From Streptomyces sp. NBC_00440 (lineage in GTDB: Bacteria > Actinomycetota > Actinomycetes > Streptomycetales > Streptomycetaceae), in contig NZ_CP107921.1 of NCBI RefSeq assembly GCF_036014215.1, forward strand, positions 6,321,501 to 6,385,500: a stretch of 64,000 nucleotides of DNA, written 5' to 3'. Positions 5,861 to 14,445 of this stretch are shown in pieces. The position numbers and the translations under genes are program-made. The notes beneath the pieces were generated by a model that saw nothing but the letters and a program-made list of their open reading frames with translations, searched no databases and had not been told where the DNA came from. Position 1 is the stretch's first letter; each line of letters opens with the position of its first letter.

Positions 5861-5900
5861 AGTCCGACAGCGTTCAGTCCGACAGCGTTCAGTCCGACAG
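5861..5900. repeat. 15-bp tandem repeat over the gntR stop codon
   Basis: AGTCCGACAGCGTTC occurs at 5861-5875 and 5876-5890, and its first 10 bases again at 5891-5900. The gntR stop lies in the innermost copy. Read past that stop, the C-terminal LSD-stop would recur in the same frame. This is a recent tandem duplication. Confidence 0.9.
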
Positions 5901-6536
5901 CATGACGAAAGCTTTGGCATGGGAGAGATGGCGTTCGACCCGGACCACCGCCTCCTCGACCCTGGACTGCCGGATCAGGGACATCATCTCGCTGTGCTCG
6001 CGCAACATCTCCGGCAGATCGTCGCTGTCCATGTCCACCAGGGTGAGGGCGAGCCGTAGTTCGGCCATCAGCGATTCCTCGACGGCCGCCAGCCGTGAAC
6101 TGCCGAGCAGCCCCACGATCGACACGTGGTACCGCAGATGTGCCTCACTGATCGCTGAGGGGTCACCGGCCTCCACCGCGGCCTCGTAGGCGGACATCGC
6201 GTCGGCCAGCGCGGCCAGTTCGGCGTGGTCCGCGTCCACCACCGCGCGGACTCCGGCGACCTCCAGGATGCGTCGGGTACGGAAGATGTCGTCGATCTCG
6301 GTGTGCGTCAGCCGCCGGACGGAGACGCCTTTGTTCGGCACCTTCACCAGCAGCCCCTCGACCGTCAGCATCTGCAGTGCCTCACGCACGGTGCTGCGGG
6401 AGATCTTGAAGCTCTCCACCAGACTGCTCTCACGCAACGGCGTTCCCGGGCGCAGCCGCCCGCTGTACATCTCCTGGCGCAGAGCCTCGGCGACCCGGTC
6501 CACCACGCTGGACCGGGAGATCTGGATTGATTCCAT
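5889..6536 (-). CDS. GntR/FadR-type transcriptional regulator
   Basis: 215 residues. The N-terminal winged helix (RVAEALRQEMYSGRLRPGTP, then SRSTVREALQML) is typical of GntR, and the C-terminal ~130 residues are an all-helical FCD ligand-binding domain (sensing small carboxylates in the family). It is divergent from the lyase/ABC transporter operon, with two copies of a palindrome in the gap, so it probably represses that operon and itself and is released by the imported substrate or a breakdown product. The ATG at 6536 is the only start giving a full wHTH domain. The 3' end carries a 15-bp tandem duplication. Confidence 0.93.
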   Translation of the reverse strand: MESIQISRSSVVDRVAEALRQEMYSGRLRPGTPLRESSLVESFKISRSTVREALQMLTVEGLLVKVPNKGVSVRRLTHTEIDDIFRTRRILEVAGVRAVVDADHAELAALADAMSAYEAAVEAGDPSAISEAHLRYHVSIVGLLGSSRLAAVEESLMAELRLALTLVDMDSDDLPEMLREHSEMMSLIRQSRVEEAVVRVERHLSHAKAFVMLSD

Positions 6537-6562
6537 GAGCCCACTCTACTGCCGGGTTGTCT

Positions 6563-6577
6563 GATTGTCGGACGATC
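6563..6577. promoter_or_regulatory. GntR operator, copy 1
   Basis: GATTGTCGGACGATC, a 15-bp near-perfect palindrome (one mismatch) 26 bp upstream of the gntR start. It matches copy 2 in 14 of 15 positions and has the TTGTC-N-GAC form of FadR-subfamily operators. Confidence 0.7.
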
Positions 6578-6605
6578 TATTGACTTCCCGGGAACTGCGA
6601 TGGCA

Positions 6606-6620
6606 GATTGTCGGACAATC
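6606..6620. promoter_or_regulatory. GntR operator, copy 2
   Basis: GATTGTCGGACAATC, a perfect 15-bp palindrome, 43 bp (centre to centre, about four helical turns) from copy 1. It lies on the lyase-operon side of the intergenic region. Confidence 0.75.
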
Positions 6621-6751
6621 CGGAGCGGGAGATCTGCGCTGCGGAACATCCCGTTCCGGCTCGTCCCGGCCGGACCATGCCCGCTGCCATGCCCGCCGCT
6701 ATGCCCTCTCCGTTCTGCCCCCTCCCTCAGGCCCCTTAGGAGCGCACCCAC

Positions 6752-8176
6752 GTGACTGTGACCACCCGCCTGTGGGGCGGCCGATTCCGTGAACCGTCGG
6801 CGCCCGCTCTCACCCGGCTCTCCCGCTCCGAACCGAGCTACTTCGACATGGCCCCCTACGACCTCGCGGGCTCCCGTGCCCACGCCAGGGAACTGGTCAG
6901 GGCAGGCATCCTCGACGACGGCGAACTGGCCGTCGTACTCGACGCGATCGACGTACTGGACCAGGACTACCGCGACGGCGCCGTGACTCCGGAACCGGGC
7001 GACGAGGACGTGCACACCTTCCTGGAGCGGGTGTTGATGGAGCGGCTCGGGACGCTCGGCGGAAAGCTGAGAGCCGGTCGCTCCCGCAATGACCAGTGTG
7101 CCAACGACCTGCGGCTCTATCTGCGTGACCAGGCGCGCCGGATCAGCGATGCCTCCTGCGAGCTGATCGAGGCGCTGACCACGCAGGCGGCCGACCACAC
7201 GCACACCGCGGCTCCGGGGTTCACCCACCTCCAGCCCGCCCAGCCAATCGTGTTCGGCCACCAACTGCTCGCTCACGCCCACGCACTGGACCGGGACATG
7301 GACCGGCTGCGTGACTGGGACGTACGCACGGCGCGCTCGCCGCTCGGTGCCGCGGCCCTCGCGGGATCCTCCATCGCGGGCCATCCGGAGCTGTCCGCCG
7401 CCGAGCTCGGATACGACCGGCCCTGTGCCAACTCGCTGGACGCGGTGGGCAGCCGGGACCACGTGGCTGAATTCCTGTTCGTGGCCTCGATGCTCGCAGT
7501 GGACGTGTCGCGGCTGGCCGAAGAGGTGTGCCTGTGGTCCTCGCGGCAGTTCCGCTGGGTCGAACTCGACGACCGCTACGCCACCGGCTCCTCGATCATG
7601 CCGCAGAAGAAGAACCCGGACATCGCCGAACTCGCCCGCGGCAAGGCCAGTCGTCTGACGGGCAATCTGATGGGGTTGCTGGGCGCGCTCAAGGGGCTCC
7701 CCTTCGCCTACAACCGAGATCTCGCGGAGGACAAGCACGCCGCGTTCGACAGTGTGGAGACGCTGCTCATCGTGCTGCCCGCGATGGCCGGTCTCATCGG
7801 ATCCCTCCGCGTGAACACCGAGGAGCTGCGGGTCCAGGCCACCGCCGGGTTCACCCTGGCGACCGAGATCGCGGACTGGCTGGCGCTGCGCGGCGTGCCG
7901 TTCCACGAGGCCCACGAGATCACCGGGGCTGTCGTACGCACCTGCGAGGACTCGGGCGTCGACCTGACGGATCTCACCGATGCCGAACTCGCGGGGATAG
8001 ATCCGAGGCTCACCCCCGAGGTCCGTCATGTGCTCACCGTGGAGAGCGCGCTCGCGGCGAGGTCCGCGACGGGCGGCACCGCGCCGGCCCAAGTGGTCGC
8101 GCAGATCGGCGAACTGACCGAACACGTCGGGACACACCGCCGGTGGGCCGCCGACTACCGGGGCCCGCGCGTCTGA
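6752..8176 (+). CDS. Argininosuccinate-lyase-like C-N lyase
   Basis: 474 residues of the aspartase/fumarase superfamily, closest by eye to argininosuccinate lyase: LWGGRF at the N-terminus, GRSRNDQ near residue 110 and the flexible catalytic-Ser signature GSSIMPQKKNPD. The family eliminates fumarate from N-substituted aspartates. Its position next to GntR, an amino-acid importer and an MmgE/PrpD protein, not next to argG or other arginine genes, argues against biosynthetic ArgH. Iminodisuccinate and EDDS lyases belong to this superfamily and are plausible comparisons. GTG start at 6752 has AGGAG 10 bp upstream. It is the first gene of the induced operon. Confidence 0.85.
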   Translation: MTVTTRLWGGRFREPSAPALTRLSRSEPSYFDMAPYDLAGSRAHARELVRAGILDDGELAVVLDAIDVLDQDYRDGAVTPEPGDEDVHTFLERVLMERLGTLGGKLRAGRSRNDQCANDLRLYLRDQARRISDASCELIEALTTQAADHTHTAAPGFTHLQPAQPIVFGHQLLAHAHALDRDMDRLRDWDVRTARSPLGAAALAGSSIAGHPELSAAELGYDRPCANSLDAVGSRDHVAEFLFVASMLAVDVSRLAEEVCLWSSRQFRWVELDDRYATGSSIMPQKKNPDIAELARGKASRLTGNLMGLLGALKGLPFAYNRDLAEDKHAAFDSVETLLIVLPAMAGLIGSLRVNTEELRVQATAGFTLATEIADWLALRGVPFHEAHEITGAVVRTCEDSGVDLTDLTDAELAGIDPRLTPEVRHVLTVESALAARSATGGTAPAQVVAQIGELTEHVGTHRRWAADYRGPRV

Positions 8177-8336
8177 GACCGCCCCCCCATGTGCCGGTCG
8201 GTCCGAAGCACCGGATTTGTTCCCGCCGAAGCCCAGCGCACGTGAACTCCACACCCCCTTCGGTCCGACCCGCGTCCGCCCCCGATTCCGCGGGCCGCAG
8301 CCGGACCGGGCCGCCAACCATTCTTAGGGACACGAC

Positions 8337-9266
8337 ATGACTGAGCCAGCGCTCACGGCCGGCCGAGCACGCCCTTCGCCGGGCCGCGCCCCCGACCAGG
8401 ATCTGCTCACCCGCACGCGCCGCCACCCCGGCCGCTGGGTCGGCGCGGTAGTGGTCGCCCTGGTCGCGGTGTTCTTCGTCCGCGCCTTTGCCGGAGCCCA
8501 GATCGACTGGGGAGTCGTCCGCCACTATCTCGGGGCCACCGAGCTGATGACCGGCCTCGTGACGACCCTCGTTCTGACGCTTGTCTCCATGGTGCTCGGT
8601 ATCGCGCTGGGACTGCTCGTCGCCGTCATGCGGCTCTCGAAGAATCCGGTGACGAGCGGCGTCGCCTGGTTCTACGTCTGGGTGTTCCGCGGGACGCCGG
8701 TGTATCTGCAGCTTCTCCTGTGGTTCAACCTGGCGCTGATCTTCCCGCTGGTCTCGGTGCCCGGTGTCTACACGGCGCGGACCGTCGACCTGATGACGCC
8801 GTTCGTGGCCGCAGCCCTCGGCCTGGGCATCAACCAGGGCGCGTACACCTCGGAGGTCGTCCGCGCCGGGATTCTGTCGGTGGACGAAGGGCAGCTCGAA
8901 GCCGCCTACACGATCGGTATGAGCACGGCCAAGGCGATGCGCCGGGTGGTGCTTCCCCAGGCGATGAAGGTGATCATTCCGCCCATCGGCAACGAGACGA
9001 TCGGGATGCTCAAGACCACCTCGCTCGCCTCGGCGGTCGGGGTGACCGAGATCCTGCTGCAGGCCCAGCACCTGTACTTCGTCAACAACCGGATCATGGA
9101 ACTGCTGATCGTCTGCGCCGTCTGGTACCTGCTGGCGGTCTCCGTACTGAGCATCGCGCAGTTCTATCTGGAGCGGTACTTCGCCAGGGGCTCCGCCCGG
9201 CCCGTTCCCCCCAGCCCCCTGCGGCGCCTGCTCGCCGCCACGCGCGGAAAGCCGGTGCTCCGATGA
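8337..9266 (+). CDS. Polar amino-acid ABC transporter permease
   Basis: 309 residues. A basic N-terminal tail of about 35 residues precedes five or six membrane segments of the His/Glu/Gln/Arg/opine permease family, with the cytoplasmic EAA loop ([12 protein letters not shown]) that docks the ATPase. The family often uses one or two such proteins as homo- or heterodimers; only one is encoded here. The 160 bp before it contain no gene. The stop overlaps the ATPase start (ATGA), so the two are translationally coupled. With the ATPase and the lipoprotein it forms a complete importer, likely for the substrate of the lyase operon. Confidence 0.93.
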
Positions 9267-10066
9267 ACCCCGACCACCTCTCCGGGCCGGGTGCGGCCCC
9301 CGGCGAAGCCCCGCTGCTCCGTGCCGAAGCCGTCCAGAAGCGGTTCGGTGAGAACCATGTGCTCAAGGGCATCGATCTGGAAGTCCCGGCCGGTGAAGTG
9401 CTCTGTCTGCTGGGCCCCTCGGGGTCCGGAAAGAGCACATTCCTGCGCTGCATCAATCACTTGGAGACCATTGACGCGGGGCAGATATGGCTGGGCGACG
9501 AGACGATCGGCTACCGCCGCCGGAAGGGGCACCTGGTCGAGAGGTCCCAGCGGGAGATCGTGCGCCAACGGCTGTCCATGGGCATGGTCTTCCAGCGCTT
9601 CAATCTGTTCCCGCACCGCACCGCGCTCCAGAACGTCATCGAGGGGCCCGTACGGGTCAAGGGCGAGAAGCCCAAAGCCGCGCGCGAGCAAGGGATCCGG
9701 CTGCTGGAGCGGGTGGGCCTCGGGGACAAGAGCGATGCCTATCCACGTCAGCTCTCCGGCGGACAGCAGCAGCGGGTCGCCATAGCGCGGGCGCTGGCCA
9801 TGGAGCCCCGGCTGATGCTGTTCGACGAGCCCACGTCCGCCCTCGACCCCGAACTCGTCGGTGAAGTCCTCACCGTCATGAAGGACCTGGCGGACACCGG
9901 GCTCACCATGATCGTGGTCACCCACGAGATCGGCTTCGCCCGGGAGGTGGCCGACCGGGTGGCTTTCCTCGACGGCGGCAGAATCCTCGAAATCGGCACG
10001 CCGTCCGAGGTGCTGGGCTCTCCCCGCAACGAGCGCACCAAGGCTTTTCTGTCCCATGTCCTGTGA
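9263..10066 (+). CDS. Polar amino-acid ABC transporter ATP-binding protein
   Basis: 267 residues. Walker A is GPSGSGKST near residue 52, the ABC signature LSGGQQQR, and Walker [15 protein letters not shown]; the switch His is in VVTHEIGF. An insertion of about 20 charged residues ([20 protein letters not shown]) sits between Walker A and the Q-loop, as in the GlnQ/HisP branch. ATG at 9263 overlaps the permease stop. The normal partner genes flank it. Confidence 0.94.
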
Positions 10067-10075
10067 CCGGCCGTG

Positions 10076-10133
10076 CCCCGTCCACGTCCCGTCCCACGTC
10101 CCGTCCCGTGTCCCGTCCTGTCCCGTGTCTCGT
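10076..10133. repeat. GTCCC-rich tandem repeat in the ABC operon
   Basis: Degenerate repeats built from CCCGTCC / ACGTCCCGTCCC units fill most of the 118-bp gap between the ATPase and the binding-protein genes. The strand is strongly pyrimidine-rich with few A residues. Confidence 0.8.
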
Positions 10134-10184
10134 GAACCGGGCGACCGCCCATCCCTGTCGGCGGACACTCATTGGGAGATCCGT

Positions 10185-11060
10185 ATGCTCCGTAACTCCG
10201 GCCGGCCGCGCCTCGCCGTACTCACGACCGCCGCGGTCCTGCTCATCTCGGGCTGCACGCACTACCACCCGGTGCCGGCGGCGAAGGCCAAGGCCGCCGG
10301 TCTCCCGTATGCCGTCGCCAAGACGGGCACTCTCCGGGTGGGCATGTCGCCGGACTTCCCGCCCATGGAGTACCTGGACGACAAGACGCACCAGGTGGCC
10401 GGGGTGGACATCGATCTGATCAGGGCCGTCGGCAAGCAGATGGGCGTGCGCGTCGACATCGTCCAGCAGTCCTTCGACCAGCTGACCAGCTCCGTACAGA
10501 CCACCAGAACCGACATCGCGATGTCCGGCCTCTCCGACACGGTGGAACGGCAGAAGACCGTCGACTTCGTCGACTACTTCGCGGCACGCGGGCGCATCTA
10601 CACGCTCAAGGGCAAGGCCGGCGCTTACCGGAAGTTCACCGACGCCTGCGGCAAACACCTCGCGGTCGGCAAGAAGGTGGACTACTACCAGCAGATCCAG
10701 GACGTGAGCCGGAAATACTGTGTGGACGCCGGGCGTCCGCCGATCCGGATCCTGCCCGCCGACTCCGGCGCCGCCGCCCGGCTCCAGCTTCAGCAGGGCC
10801 GGGTCGAACTCGCCGCGCAGGGCGAGGAGAACCTCACCTACTTCGGGAAGAGCGACCCGTCCGCGTACTCCGTCGTGATGCCCCCGCTGCCGAGCACCCC
10901 CTTCGCCGTCGTGATCAAGAAGGGCGACACCACGATGGCCAACGCGGTACTGAAGGCGCTGAAGGCCGTCGAGAAGTCGGGCGAGTACCAACGCGTCCTC
11001 AAGGCCGCGGGCCTCGGCTACGGCATCACGGAGCCGGTGATCAACGGCACCGGGTCATGA
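10185..11060 (+). CDS. Solute-binding lipoprotein, family 3 (amino-acid type)
   Basis: 291 residues. A lipoprotein signal (basic MLRNSGRPR, hydrophobic core, lipobox LISGC at about residue 24) anchors it to the outer face of the membrane. The mature part is the bilobed family 3 receptor: LRVGMSPDFPPMEY, DIDLIRAVGKQMG, and a ligand-loop region with DIAMSGLSDTVERQKTVDFVDY. It belongs to the importer encoded by the two preceding genes. ATG at 10185 follows GGGAG. The ligand is unknown; an acidic amino-acid derivative would suit the neighbouring lyase. Confidence 0.93.
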   Translation: MLRNSGRPRLAVLTTAAVLLISGCTHYHPVPAAKAKAAGLPYAVAKTGTLRVGMSPDFPPMEYLDDKTHQVAGVDIDLIRAVGKQMGVRVDIVQQSFDQLTSSVQTTRTDIAMSGLSDTVERQKTVDFVDYFAARGRIYTLKGKAGAYRKFTDACGKHLAVGKKVDYYQQIQDVSRKYCVDAGRPPIRILPADSGAAARLQLQQGRVELAAQGEENLTYFGKSDPSAYSVVMPPLPSTPFAVVIKKGDTTMANAVLKALKAVEKSGEYQRVLKAAGLGYGITEPVINGTGS

Positions 11061-11121
11061 CCCGGCCCGGTTGACGTCAGCCCGCCTGCCCGCACGCCAA
11101 TTTCCAGCGAATCGAGCGCTC

Positions 11122-12036
11122 TTGAGCACGCCCGCACACCCGACCGCCCTGTCCACCGCAGCCGCACCCGGAGCGCGCTGGCCCGGCGGGGCCCGGAGCG
11201 CCGTCGCGCTCGCCTTCGATCTGGACGGCCCCACCGGCGACGCGATGCTGAGCGGCGAGATCTGGCGCAAGCCCGCCTATTTCTCGCTGGGCGCCTACGG
11301 TCCGTACCGCGCGCTGCCGCGCATTCTCGGCCTCCTCCGGTCGGCCGGAGTGACCGCCACCTTCTTCGTGCCCGCGTGGGTGATCGAGACCTGGCCCGAC
11401 GCGTGCCTCGCCATCGTGGAGCAGGGGCACGAAGTGGCCCACCACGGTTACCGGCACGAGCGGTACTGGGATCTGACACCGGCAGAGCAGGCCGAGGTGA
11501 TCTCCCGTAGCCAAGAGGTCTTCACCCGGGTGCTCGGCGCTCCGGCCCAGGGATTCCGTACGCCTTCGGGCGACTGGCATCCGCAGACACCACGGCTCCT
11601 GCTCGAAGCGGGATTCACCTACTCCAGTTCCATGCGGGGCGACGACCGGCCCTACTTCCACGAGATCGACGGGGCGCCGACCTCCCTGGTGGAGATTCCC
11701 GGCCGGTGGGACCTCGACGACTACGCCTCTCTCGCCTACACCCGTGAGCCCGACTTCCCCAAGGGCCAGGACCGTATCGCCAGTTACGAACTGACCCTGG
11801 ACAACTGGATCAGGGAGTTCGACGGCCACCACGCCGAAGGGCTGTGCATGACCACCCTGTTCCATCCCAAGGTGTCCGGCAAGCCGGGCCGACTGCTGCT
11901 GCTCGAACGGTTCCTGGCGCATATGAGCGCACAGCCCGGGGTCTGGTTCGCAGCCTGCCGGGAGATCGCCGCATGGTGGGCGCAGCGCCCGGCCCCGCAG
12001 GCCGGTGGCGGGCCGGAGGCGACCGCGCATGCCTGA
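11122..12036 (+). CDS. Cytosolic polysaccharide-deacetylase-fold amidohydrolase (1)
   Basis: About 304 residues with a NodB-type fold: the Asp pair in ALAFDLDGPTGD, the His pair of the metal site in HEVAHHGYRH, and RTPSGDWHPQ. It resembles the PuuE allantoinase / HpPgdA branch, whose members can hydrolyse small amides as well as glycans. There is no signal peptide, so a cell-wall substrate is unlikely. The start is uncertain: TTG at 11122 (used) or TTG at 11071; neither has a strong ribosome site. The 3' end overlaps the next gene, which has the same fold. Confidence 0.82.
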   Translation: MSTPAHPTALSTAAAPGARWPGGARSAVALAFDLDGPTGDAMLSGEIWRKPAYFSLGAYGPYRALPRILGLLRSAGVTATFFVPAWVIETWPDACLAIVEQGHEVAHHGYRHERYWDLTPAEQAEVISRSQEVFTRVLGAPAQGFRTPSGDWHPQTPRLLLEAGFTYSSSMRGDDRPYFHEIDGAPTSLVEIPGRWDLDDYASLAYTREPDFPKGQDRIASYELTLDNWIREFDGHHAEGLCMTTLFHPKVSGKPGRLLLLERFLAHMSAQPGVWFAACREIAAWWAQRPAPQAGGGPEATAHA

Positions 12037-13003
12037 CACGACCGCCGCCCCCGCCCCCGGTCCGGCCGAGGCCGCCGTGGAGTCCCCGCGCTGGCCCCGG
12101 GGGATCCGCTGCGCCGTCGTCGTGAGCGTCGACTTCGACGCCGAACTTCCACTGCTGGCCGCCGACCCGACCACCGCACAGCGGGTCAAGACCCTCTCCG
12201 TCGGCCGCTACGGCGCGACTCGCGGGGTGGACCGGCTGCTCGCCGAGTTCCAGTCGCAGGGGGTGACGACCACCTGGTGTGTTCCCGGCCGCAACGCGGA
12301 ACGGTATCCGCACCTCATCCGCGCCATCGCCGGGCACGGACACGAGATCGCCCACCACGGCCACGCGCACGAGGACTTCAGCCGCCTCGGTCTGGCCGGG
12401 CAGCTGGAAGTGGCCGACCGGGGTTCCGAGGCCATCGCGGACGTGACGGGCGAGCGGCCCCGCGGCTTCCGTATCCCGGCGGGGGAGTGGGCCGCGGGCT
12501 TCCCCGACGCCCTGGCGGACCGGGGATTCATCTGGTCCTCGTCGCTGCACGGCGACGATCTGCCCCACTTCCATCCGGCCAGGACGGCCGGTCCCCGCGT
12601 CGGTACGGGGACCGGTAGGGGCACCGCGCGCCGGCTGATCGAAATCCCGGTCCACCACGAACTGCACGACCATCCGTACTTCTTCTTCAACCTGGACCCG
12701 GCGTTCCCCGTCGGCCAGTCGAGGATCGCGTCGTACCGCGAGGTGCTGGGCAACTGGACCACGGAGTTCGACGCCTACCGCCGGTTCGGGCTCTGCTACA
12801 CCCTGCGGCTCCAGCCCGAGGTCACCGGAACCCCCGGCCGGATCGGCATCGTGCGGGAACTCCTCCGCCACATCCGCAGCCATGACGACGTCTGGATCGC
12901 GACAGCCGGTGAGGTCGCCGACTGGTGGAGGTCCAGGAACACCGGCAACGCGCCCGGCCATCCGGCCGAGGTATTCGACCGCTGCGCCAGGGAGTTGGCA
13001 TGA
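12029..13003 (+). CDS. Cytosolic polysaccharide-deacetylase-fold amidohydrolase (2)
   Basis: 324 residues, a second NodB-fold protein clearly related to the preceding one: VVVSVDFDAE for the Asp pair, HEIAHHGHAH for the His pair, RIPAGEW, and a shared SSSLHGDD loop (SSSMRGDD in its neighbour). No signal peptide. ATG at 12029 has GGAGG 10 bp upstream and lies 8 bp inside the previous gene; the stop overlaps the MmgE/PrpD start. Two homologous subunits in tandem suggest a heteromer or successive hydrolytic steps. The substrate is unknown. Confidence 0.85.
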   Translation: MPDTTAAPAPGPAEAAVESPRWPRGIRCAVVVSVDFDAELPLLAADPTTAQRVKTLSVGRYGATRGVDRLLAEFQSQGVTTTWCVPGRNAERYPHLIRAIAGHGHEIAHHGHAHEDFSRLGLAGQLEVADRGSEAIADVTGERPRGFRIPAGEWAAGFPDALADRGFIWSSSLHGDDLPHFHPARTAGPRVGTGTGRGTARRLIEIPVHHELHDHPYFFFNLDPAFPVGQSRIASYREVLGNWTTEFDAYRRFGLCYTLRLQPEVTGTPGRIGIVRELLRHIRSHDDVWIATAGEVADWWRSRNTGNAPGHPAEVFDRCARELA

Positions 13004-14445
13004 CAGCCGCAACGTCCCCAACGGCGCCGGGCTCCGGGCGGGCCGGCGACGCGCTCGGCGCACTGGCCCGGTTCACCGCGAACACCCGGCTCGCCATGAT
13101 TCCCCGGCCGGTGGTCACCAAGGCCCAGCACCACGTCCTGGACACCCTCGGGGCCGCGCTGGCCGGTTCCGCGAGTACGGAAACCACCGCCCTGCTCCAG
13201 CTGCTCGCCGCCTCCGAACCGGGCGGAGCGGGCACGGTCTGGGGAACCGGCCCCCGGGTGGCGCCGCGTGCGGCGGCTCTCGTCAACGGGGTGTCGGCGC
13301 ACGCCCTCGAACTCGATGACGCCGGTGGCTGCGACCACTCGGGCGCCGTCGTCGTCCCCGCCGCACTCGCCGCCGCCGAGGTGGCGGAACACCCGGTGTC
13401 CGGAGCCCGGTTGCTCGCCGCCGTCATCGTCGGTTACGACGTGGCACGCCGTGTTCTGGAGGCGTGCGGCGGCTATGCGCCGCACAACGAGGCGGGTTGG
13501 CACTCCACCGGCACCTGCGGCCCGTTCGGGGCGGCCGCTGCGGCGGCAGCCGTCCTGGGACTCGGCCCGGACAGCACCGCCCACGCCCTCGCGCTCTCCG
13601 CCAGCTTCAGCGGCGGCATCTGGGCGTTCGTCCACGACGGGGCCATGAGCAAGCGACTGCACGCGGGGCGGGCAGCGGAGGCGGGGCTCACCGCCGCGCT
13701 CGCGGCGCGGCACGGGATCACCGGGCCGCGCGGGGTGTTCGACGACACCTGGGGCGGTTTCCTGCGCACCATCGCGCCCGGCTCCGCCACACCGGCCGCG
13801 CTCACCGCCCGTCTCGGTGACCGGTGGTGCGTCTCCCGGTGCTCGATCAAGCCGTACGCCTCGTGCCGCTCCACCCACTCATCGGTCGACGCGGTGGCCG
13901 GGCTCCTGGCGGACCACGAGCTCGGGCCCGACGACGTCGCTTCGGTCCATGTACGGCTCTCGGCCTTCATCCACGGGATGTGCGGGGCCGCCGAGTGCGG
14001 CACTCTCGCCGCGGCCCAGCTCAGCCTTCCGTACGCGGTGGCCGTGCGGGTGGCGCTCGGAACGGCCGACCTCACGGCGTACTCCGCGGAGAGCCGTGCG
14101 TCGCCCGCTGTCCGGTCGGTGCTGGACCGGATCACCCTGGAGGTGGACGAGTCGATGACCGGCGACACCGAGCCCGTGATCACGCTCACCACCCGCACCG
14201 GTGCCTGTCACACCGGCCAGGTGACCGACCCGCTCGGCTCGCCCACGAACCCCCTGGACAGCGCCGCGGTCACCGCCAAGTTCCACGGCCTCGCCACCCG
14301 GGTACTGGACCCCGCCGTCGCACACACCGTCGCGGACACGGTGCGGGCACTCCCGGACCTGCCCGATGTACGGGTGCTGCTCTCGGCACTCGCCACCACG
14401 GCACCCGGACCCGGTGCGCCCACCGGTGCCCAGGGGCGCGGATGA
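13000..14445 (+). CDS. MmgE/PrpD family protein
   Basis: 481 residues. It has the family's helical N-terminal domain and the hallmark segment HALELDDAGGCDHSGAVVVP near residue 105. Known members are 2-methylcitrate dehydratase, cis-aconitate decarboxylase and iminodisuccinate epimerase. No methylcitrate-cycle genes are nearby, so PrpD activity is unlikely; with an adjacent ArgH-like lyase the epimerase comparison is the most suggestive. ATG at 13000 overlaps the preceding stop (ATGA). It is the last clear gene of the operon. Confidence 0.88.
   Translation: MTAATSPTAPGSGRAGDALGALARFTANTRLAMIPRPVVTKAQHHVLDTLGAALAGSASTETTALLQLLAASEPGGAGTVWGTGPRVAPRAAALVNGVSAHALELDDAGGCDHSGAVVVPAALAAAEVAEHPVSGARLLAAVIVGYDVARRVLEACGGYAPHNEAGWHSTGTCGPFGAAAAAAAVLGLGPDSTAHALALSASFSGGIWAFVHDGAMSKRLHAGRAAEAGLTAALAARHGITGPRGVFDDTWGGFLRTIAPGSATPAALTARLGDRWCVSRCSIKPYASCRSTHSSVDAVAGLLADHELGPDDVASVHVRLSAFIHGMCGAAECGTLAAAQLSLPYAVAVRVALGTADLTAYSAESRASPAVRSVLDRITLEVDESMTGDTEPVITLTTRTGACHTGQVTDPLGSPTNPLDSAAVTAKFHGLATRVLDPAVAHTVADTVRALPDLPDVRVLLSALATTAPGPGAPTGAQGRG

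Follow-up and report, generated by a model that had tools for sequence, protein, structure and literature searches.

Several characterized systems resemble parts of the gene cluster described here. In Agrobacterium tumefaciens BY6, an iminodisuccinate (IDS) epimerase of the MmgE/PrpD family (PDB 2HP0/2HP3) is paired with a C-N lyase, and a paper on IRG1 of Bacillus subtilis gives His99 and Tyr145 as its suggested bases (PMC7347537). The lyase for ethylenediaminedisuccinate (EDDS) reportedly joins amines to fumarate (PMC12363623) and has been used in making toxin A (PMC10792612). Within the NodB fold, HpPgdA has been linked to cyclic imidases (PMC9304392), a group that we consider together with the allantoinase PuuE and cyclic imide hydrolases. 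Hydantoin utilization combines a hydantoinase, a racemase and a carbamoylase. Genes comparable in part with these systems occur side by side in the soil actinomycete Streptomyces sp. NBC_00440, in a stretch of 64 kb (positions 6321501-6385500 of its 8.4-Mb contig; hereafter the window). One tight unit at 5889-14445 comprises a GntR regulator on the minus strand, a lyase resembling argininosuccinate lyase (ArgH), a one-permease ATP-binding cassette (ABC) importer, two NodB-fold proteins (NodB1 and NodB2) and an MmgE/PrpD protein (Table 1). A first-pass annotation of the window had described this divergent cluster with its overlapping starts. When the gene calls were checked against curated models (Pfam, NCBIfam), all of its genes proved to be present and recognizable. 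This is a real, conserved operon of catabolic type, and the idea of a common system was correct. We tentatively propose that its role is to scavenge arginine, or a guanidino compound related to it, in succinyl-linked form.

A comparable cluster that carries the name 'argH' on pSymA of Sinorhizobium meliloti Ak57 contains genes for a GNAT protein, a LysR regulator, a lyase, a permease, an ATPase, a solute-binding protein, an MmgE/PrpD protein and a NodB protein. Its lyase is 59% identical to that of the window and has the same Tyr30 and Asn118. However, it carries a single NodB protein of another subfamily (58% identical to one from Microvirga and 37% to NodB1), and LysR takes the place of GntR. 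We found no function for this cluster, and our literature search found neither a description of the seven-gene cluster nor an assigned substrate. Existing annotation treats its members one by one, as argininosuccinate lyase, polysaccharide deacetylase and MmgE/PrpD. Solving the unit would name a nutrient, assign functions to enzyme subfamilies known by family name only, and document the conversion of ArgH into a catabolic enzyme.

The gene content is widely conserved. A scan of genome contigs yielded 327 MmgE/PrpD relatives, and the loci of the best 80 of these were analyzed. The lyase was present in 73 of the 80 loci, each importer gene in 74 and each NodB gene in 70. Because 61 of them, from two phyla, hold all seven importer and enzyme genes in the window's order, the cluster is a genuine conserved unit beyond chance. 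Among the other 19 loci, six have all seven genes but were scored as having another order, six are without the NodB pair at the thresholds applied, three have only the right-hand part, and four have MmgE/PrpD alone. The deviating order scored for Streptomyces sp. CB01635 (locus L111) probably results from comparing open frames rather than genes, and the three partial loci, which are shorter, were probably truncated where their contigs end. Among the hosts are Streptomyces, Nonomuraea, Saccharopolyspora, Pseudomonas, Erwinia, Pantoea, Rahnella, Paraburkholderia, Caballeronia, Halomonadaceae, Microvirga and Chelatococcus, and many of these genera are familiar from plants and soil. In the window, permease and ATPase genes overlap by 4 bases, the two NodB genes by 8 or 32, and NodB2 and MmgE/PrpD by 4. 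Since starts and stops overlap from the permease to MmgE/PrpD, the arrangement suggests a single transcript for these genes. The solute-binding protein likely starts at the ATG at 10185, as a lipoprotein.

The housekeeping ArgH of the host is a different protein, because another ArgH gene directly adjoins argG elsewhere in the genome, which holds six PF00206 matches in total; its product is 54% identical to the window lyase. Of 22 genomes searched, each with an MmgE/PrpD relative, 20 contain the cluster lyase, at 59-76% identity, and all 20 carry a second, ArgH-like gene (38-59%); the remaining two genomes are those of loci L091 and L096. Given the ArgH gene beside argG and the second gene in 20/20 genomes, we rejected a role as the only or the biosynthetic ArgH, and the gene is not the sole argH of its genome, a prospect that the first-pass annotation had raised against its own proposal. 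Among solved structures, 6iem gives 488 bits with the window lyase and 6g3d gives 209 bits. Both are labeled 'Argininosuccinate lyase' in the match table, and we take them to be the ArgH of Mycobacterium tuberculosis and an EDDS lyase, respectively. On this difference in bit score, assignment as an EDDS or IDS lyase was rejected.

A tree of 103 proteins, made by a quick method with long branches flagged, unites the 74 cluster lyases in one clade (SH-aLRT, a likelihood-ratio branch support, of 100). Together with four actinobacterial ArgH rows they form a clade of 78 rows (SH-aLRT 100), and the proteobacterial ArgH rows lie outside. Given this nesting, an actinobacterial ArgH is the most likely ancestor of the lyase, which would later have moved into Proteobacteria. 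The first-pass annotation had suggested a phylogeny against both ArgH and the IDS and EDDS lyases; our tree covers the ArgH half of that comparison. Residues were compared between the 74 cluster lyases and 25 ArgH rows, one of which is L096, with numbering taken from an alignment. The catalytic-type residues R112, N113, T158, H159, S280, S281 and K286 are invariant in all 74, and the segments SRND, THLQ and SSIMPQKKNP are kept in the window lyase. In contrast, residue 118 is Asn in 74/74 cluster lyases and Thr in 24 of the 25 ArgH rows. A further difference from ArgH is that the cluster lyase is encoded in a transport operon.

Among solved structures, the MmgE/PrpD protein matches IDS epimerase best (130 bits) and cis-aconitate decarboxylase next (106 bits). 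In the alignment, its H113 faces His99 and its N163 faces Tyr145, and both residues are invariant in 24/24 aligned sequences, the window included. Since the His99 position is kept, the protein may work like an epimerase, but it lacks Tyr145, the other proposed base of IDS epimerase.

The NodB-fold proteins are unequal. NodB1 matches 3rxz (153 bits; named polysaccharide deacetylase only), HpPgdA (3qbu, 104 bits) and PuuE (3cl6, 85 bits), and NodB2 likewise has 3rxz as its best match, followed by HpPgdA, with PuuE lower. Against the PuuE model the two proteins reach 103 and 80 bits, far under the cut-off of 424.6. Asp50, the metal-type residues His125 and His129, and the late His265 of NodB1 are kept in 71/71 sequences, and the protein appears to resemble a group that includes enzymes opening small cyclic amides. 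In NodB2, 5 of 71 sequences, all five actinobacterial, retain the first metal-type His (H118), and 59 retain the second (H122). The late position (270) is His in 67, Gln in three and Arg in one. The window copy retains H118 and H122 and has Gln at position 270. Judged by these residues, NodB2 is partly degenerate, and a tandem pair with such a second copy sets the window apart from the PuuE group. With the first metal-type His of NodB2 mostly lost, the late one replaced in the window copy, and NodB1 intact in 71/71, we rejected the view that both are equally active hydrolases. The first-pass annotation was right that two NodB-fold proteins are present, but its description of both as hydrolases fits the second only in part.

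In the divergent promoter region, a perfect palindrome of 13 bases is accompanied, 43 bases away, by a copy with a single mismatch, and two such matches arose in 0 of 100 shuffles. A similar core, TTGTCCGACAA, lies upstream of the L111 lyase; this single match was equalled by 21 of 100 shuffles and is not significant alone. The GntR/FCD protein is a probable repressor.

Taken as a scavenging operon, the unit would be induced by its substrate, an argininosuccinate-type conjugate in which arginine or a guanidino relative carries a succinyl group, ring-closed amide forms included. We consider this reading possible but far from secure, and we infer its substrate, step order, regulation, ring opening and epimerase role. 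The class of chemistry is likely. In the presence of substrate, the GntR repressor would leave the two palindromes, and the compound would be taken up by the ABC importer. NodB1, perhaps with the degenerate NodB2 as partner, could then hydrolyze a cyclic amide or acyl-guanidine ring, by analogy to PuuE and cyclic imidases. The MmgE/PrpD protein might next epimerize the carbon of the N-CH(COO-)-CH2-COO- group. Finally, the ArgH-derived lyase would eliminate fumarate and free arginine or its guanidino relative for ordinary breakdown. Argininosuccinate cyclizes spontaneously. A narrower and rather unlikely version of the proposal is a dedicated salvage of cyclized argininosuccinate-like conjugates, in which NodB opens the 'anhydride' ring, MmgE/PrpD corrects the carbon racemized in the ring, and a neofunctionalized ArgH releases fumarate. 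If true, such a scheme would follow hydantoinase-like logic with unrelated enzymes and would have spread between phyla by horizontal transfer. The unit would share the proposed ring opening and racemase with hydantoin utilization, except that the window has NodB proteins and a presumably fumarate-releasing lyase instead.

Neighboring genes provide further clues to the substrate. They were first recognized by eye, and those used as evidence were then checked against models, except for the members of L167 (68-89% identical to L091 proteins) and the L166 ureohydrolase (82% identical to that of L165). Arginase-family genes were sought with a profile built from seven proteins that it later found, among them an L176 protein and the L175 homolog at 6984-8045. 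Because no NCBIfam model recognizes the latter at E 1e-15, the L176 protein is a doubtful member of the family. The fetched flanks of 11 of the 80 loci contain an arginase-family gene; ten of these loci have the cluster lyase, and the eleventh is L091. The same is true of 8 of the 16 loci L164-L179 (L176 being doubtful), and such a gene is also close to a cluster lyase in G498, G576, G1092 and G1150. From the density of 0.55 per Mb in 16 genomes, about 0.5 (0.54) would be expected in the 80 flanks, versus the 11 observed. With one locus per host family, 0.09 families are expected and three are seen with the lyase (Poisson ~1e-4, or 0.004 if two count), a rough estimate with 14 families and an 8-kb core per locus set by hand. 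The ten lyase-linked loci fall into three host groups. Because their ureohydrolases are only 38-45% alike, the linkage probably arose more than once, by separate recruitment.

All seven ureohydrolases tested (L041, L048, L049, L052, L057, L165 and L170) pass the agmatinase cut-off of TIGR01230. The Nonomuraea ureohydrolase scores best as guanidinobutyrase (278 bits), then as proclavaminate amidinohydrolase and guanidinopropionase. For the thiamine diphosphate enzyme beside it, the best model is an uncharacterized family (313 bits), and the second best is 5-guanidino-2-oxopentanoate decarboxylase (311 bits, below the cut-off of 500). In G1150, genes for an arginase and an ornithine cyclodeaminase, both over cut-off, adjoin the unit, and a Paracoccus plasmid has genes annotated for the same two enzymes (60-68% identical to the G1150 pair) beside the importer, NodB pair and MmgE/PrpD genes. 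The MmgE/PrpD proteins of L091 and L167, which belong to the same 47-row clade (support 100/96), are accompanied by a TRZ/ATZ aminohydrolase, a ureohydrolase, a carbamoylase and a hydantoinase. In L167, genes for the same kind of importer and for a NodB protein are divergent from, and next to, the hydantoinase-type genes. The cluster lyase was not found in the genomes of these two loci, whose cluster looks like one for guanidine or hydantoin catabolism. Together, the ureohydrolases, arginine genes and hydantoinase-type genes favor a guanidino or arginine compound with a ring to open.

The first-pass annotation had suggested the possible breakdown of an N-substituted aspartate of the aminopolycarboxylate type. 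A catabolic unit centered on the C-N lyase and MmgE/PrpD protein is supported, plausibly one for some N-substituted aspartate; the assignment to IDS or EDDS is not supported. Aminopolycarboxylates such as iminodisuccinate, EDDS, or fungal compounds of the toxin A/aspergillomarasmine type and their lactams would be handled by an epimerase and a C-N lyase as in strain BY6, with NodB opening the lactam. The pairing of these two enzymes, the structural match to IDS epimerase, the EDDS lyase chemistry reported in the sources above and the plant and soil genera among the hosts all fit this explanation. Yet the lyase is much closer to ArgH than to EDDS lyase, taking the two structures as identified above, and nests with ArgH in a tree lacking EDDS and IDS rows. 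Moreover, the Tyr145 position is Asn in 24/24 aligned sequences and guanidino or arginine genes adjoin the unit in some relatives, which together leave the explanation unlikely. A cyclic imide, hydantoin, or N-acyl or N-carbamoyl aspartate could alternatively be degraded without any guanidino group, NodB serving as imidase, MmgE/PrpD as racemase and the lyase cleaving an N-acyl or ureido succinate. This would accord with the kinship of NodB1 to PuuE and to a structure tied to cyclic imidases, with the hydantoinase and carbamoylase genes beside MmgE/PrpD proteins of the same clade, and with a beta-aspartyl-peptidase-like protein (below cut-off) in L174. It would leave the ureohydrolases and arginine genes of some relatives, and the descent of the lyase from ArgH, without a place, and we regard it as quite unlikely.

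A separate matter, combinable with any of these readings, is whether the MmgE/PrpD protein might be a dehydratase, decarboxylase or isomerase acting on a downstream acid. Its family includes 2-methylcitrate dehydratase and cis-aconitate decarboxylase, and the second proposed epimerase base is changed. On the other hand, its closest solved relative is an epimerase, and members of its clade accompany hydantoin-type enzymes, among which racemization is a usual step; a role other than epimerase thus seems improbable. That the lyase is an ordinary spare enzyme of arginine biosynthesis amid unrelated neighbors is very improbable. It does score 515 bits with the ArgH model, but the host's own ArgH adjoins argG, the gene order is conserved across two phyla, and ArgH-conserved positions are altered in the 74 cluster lyases. 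The position of Asp33 of delta-2 crystallin, Asp in 24/25 ArgH rows, holds Tyr (67) or Phe (7) in all 74, and at that of Gln328, Gln in 24/25, at least 73 of the 74 have Ser, Ala, Gly or Ile.

These two replacements also weigh against the scavenging of arginine conjugates that we favor, as do several other observations. Asp33 and Gln328 presumably hold the arginine part of the substrate, and because both are lost, argininosuccinate itself may not be what the lyase cleaves. The second proposed base of IDS epimerase is Asn in 24/24. No arginase-family gene was found in the fetched flanks of 69 of the 80 loci, including all those from Pseudomonas, and the profile search found none in the 64-kb window. 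The Erwiniaceae ureohydrolase comes with its own LysR regulator and a gene resembling glycerol dehydrogenase, a set that may be independent of the unit. In L174-L176, more distant MmgE/PrpD proteins and lyases stand beside M20/M24 peptidases or a beta-aspartyl-peptidase-like protein. Finally, the lyase was not found with the importer and NodB pair of the Paracoccus plasmid, and a Bosea plasmid has the importer with neither a lyase nor an annotated NodB protein.

Table 1. Features of the unit, with positions in the window.
Feature	Position	Strand	Basis
GntR/FCD-family regulator	5889..6536	-	PF00392 and PF07729 over cut-off; 54% identical gene at the corresponding site of Streptomyces sp. CB01635 (L111)
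Operator-like palindrome, imperfect, ATTGTCGGACGAT	6564..6576	+	one mismatch to the perfect copy
Operator-like palindrome, perfect, ATTGTC-G-GACAAT	6607..6619	+	shuffle test
ArgH-derived C-N lyase (putative fumarate release)	6752..8176	+	TIGR00838 515 bits, cut-off 279.5; clade of 74
Amino-acid type ABC permease, sole permease gene of the importer	8337..9266	+	PF00528; TIGR01726 (HEQRo_perm_3TM) over cut-off
ABC ATPase of the importer	9263..10066	+	PF00005; best models EhuA, TcyN and GlnQ, each below its own cut-off
Solute-binding lipoprotein, family 3	10185..11060 (open reading frame from 10056)	+	PF00497; lipobox-like LISGC judged by eye
NodB1, NodB-fold hydrolase with intact metal site; proposed cyclic amide/imide hydrolase	11071..12036	+	PF01522; matches to 3rxz, 3qbu, 3cl6
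NodB2, partly degenerate NodB-fold partner	12005 (GTG) or 12029 (ATG)..13003	+	PF01522
MmgE/PrpD-family protein; proposed epimerase of the aspartyl carbon	13000..14445	+	PF03972 and PF19305; IDS epimerase is the nearest solved structure

The MmgE/PrpD protein has a patchy distribution. At E <=1e-95, the genomes with a match number 1 of 396 in the window's phylum, 4 of 385 in the Bradyrhizobium class, 10 of 397 in the Microvirga order and 4 of 300 in the Paraburkholderia order, and every one of these counts includes the seed genome. Weaker matches, at 39% identity or less, were found in 32 further genomes among 200 from the window's family. Relatives of the unit occur in Sinorhizobium meliloti and in Pseudomonas fluorescens FW300-N2E3. 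Of the 72,556 records in a plasmid collection, 93 contain a match to the protein, always at less than 60% identity, and Sinorhizobium accounts for 61 of the 93. Among the five matching records inspected, which include the Paracoccus and Bosea plasmids, those of S. meliloti (pSymA), Chelatococcus and Burkholderia pyrrocinia carry lyase, importer and NodB genes.

Several loci contain additional genes. The L091 and L167 clusters (L091:2887-17229 and L167:3706-14733) also encode M20-type and Rid-domain proteins, more than one carbamoylase and, recognized by eye, a DUF1028-like protein, and L091 alone has a hydantoin-racemase-like protein, likewise recognized by eye. In L174 (5813-12651), genes for a beta-aspartyl-peptidase-like protein (below cut-off), an ArgH-like lyase (over cut-off), an MmgE/PrpD protein and a solute-binding protein are consecutive, and a formimidoylglutamase-like ureohydrolase (below cut-off) is divergent to the row of lyase and MmgE/PrpD. 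Locus L175 (5713-16593) combines an ArgH-like lyase and an MmgE/PrpD protein with peptidase-like proteins (one ectoine-hydrolase-like, below cut-off) and two agmatinase-like proteins (below cut-off).

Two more enzymes, a class II aldolase and a GhrA-like 2-hydroxyacid dehydrogenase, are encoded between the MmgE/PrpD and NodB genes in Vreelandella (L038:11377-13115) and near the cluster in loci of the Pseudomonas viridiflava/syringae type (L060:80-1803), where they perhaps provide a further step for the acid product. Valine-catabolism genes beside L060 (P. viridiflava; 3-hydroxyisobutyrate and methylmalonate-semialdehyde dehydrogenase) were taken as unrelated. The Microvirga operon (L052:6334-7326) contains a PIG3-type oxidoreductase (417 bits, over cut-off), and in L065 and L086 another member of its blast cluster comes after the gene for a second solute-binding protein, downstream of MmgE/PrpD. 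The 1.8-Mb genome of L096, Candidatus Aphodousia gallistercoris, gives 15 matches to the window lyase (E up to 0.001, some weak); here an ArgH-like lyase gene lies upstream of the MmgE/PrpD relative, and membrane proteins of family F140 appear tricarboxylate-permease-like by eye.

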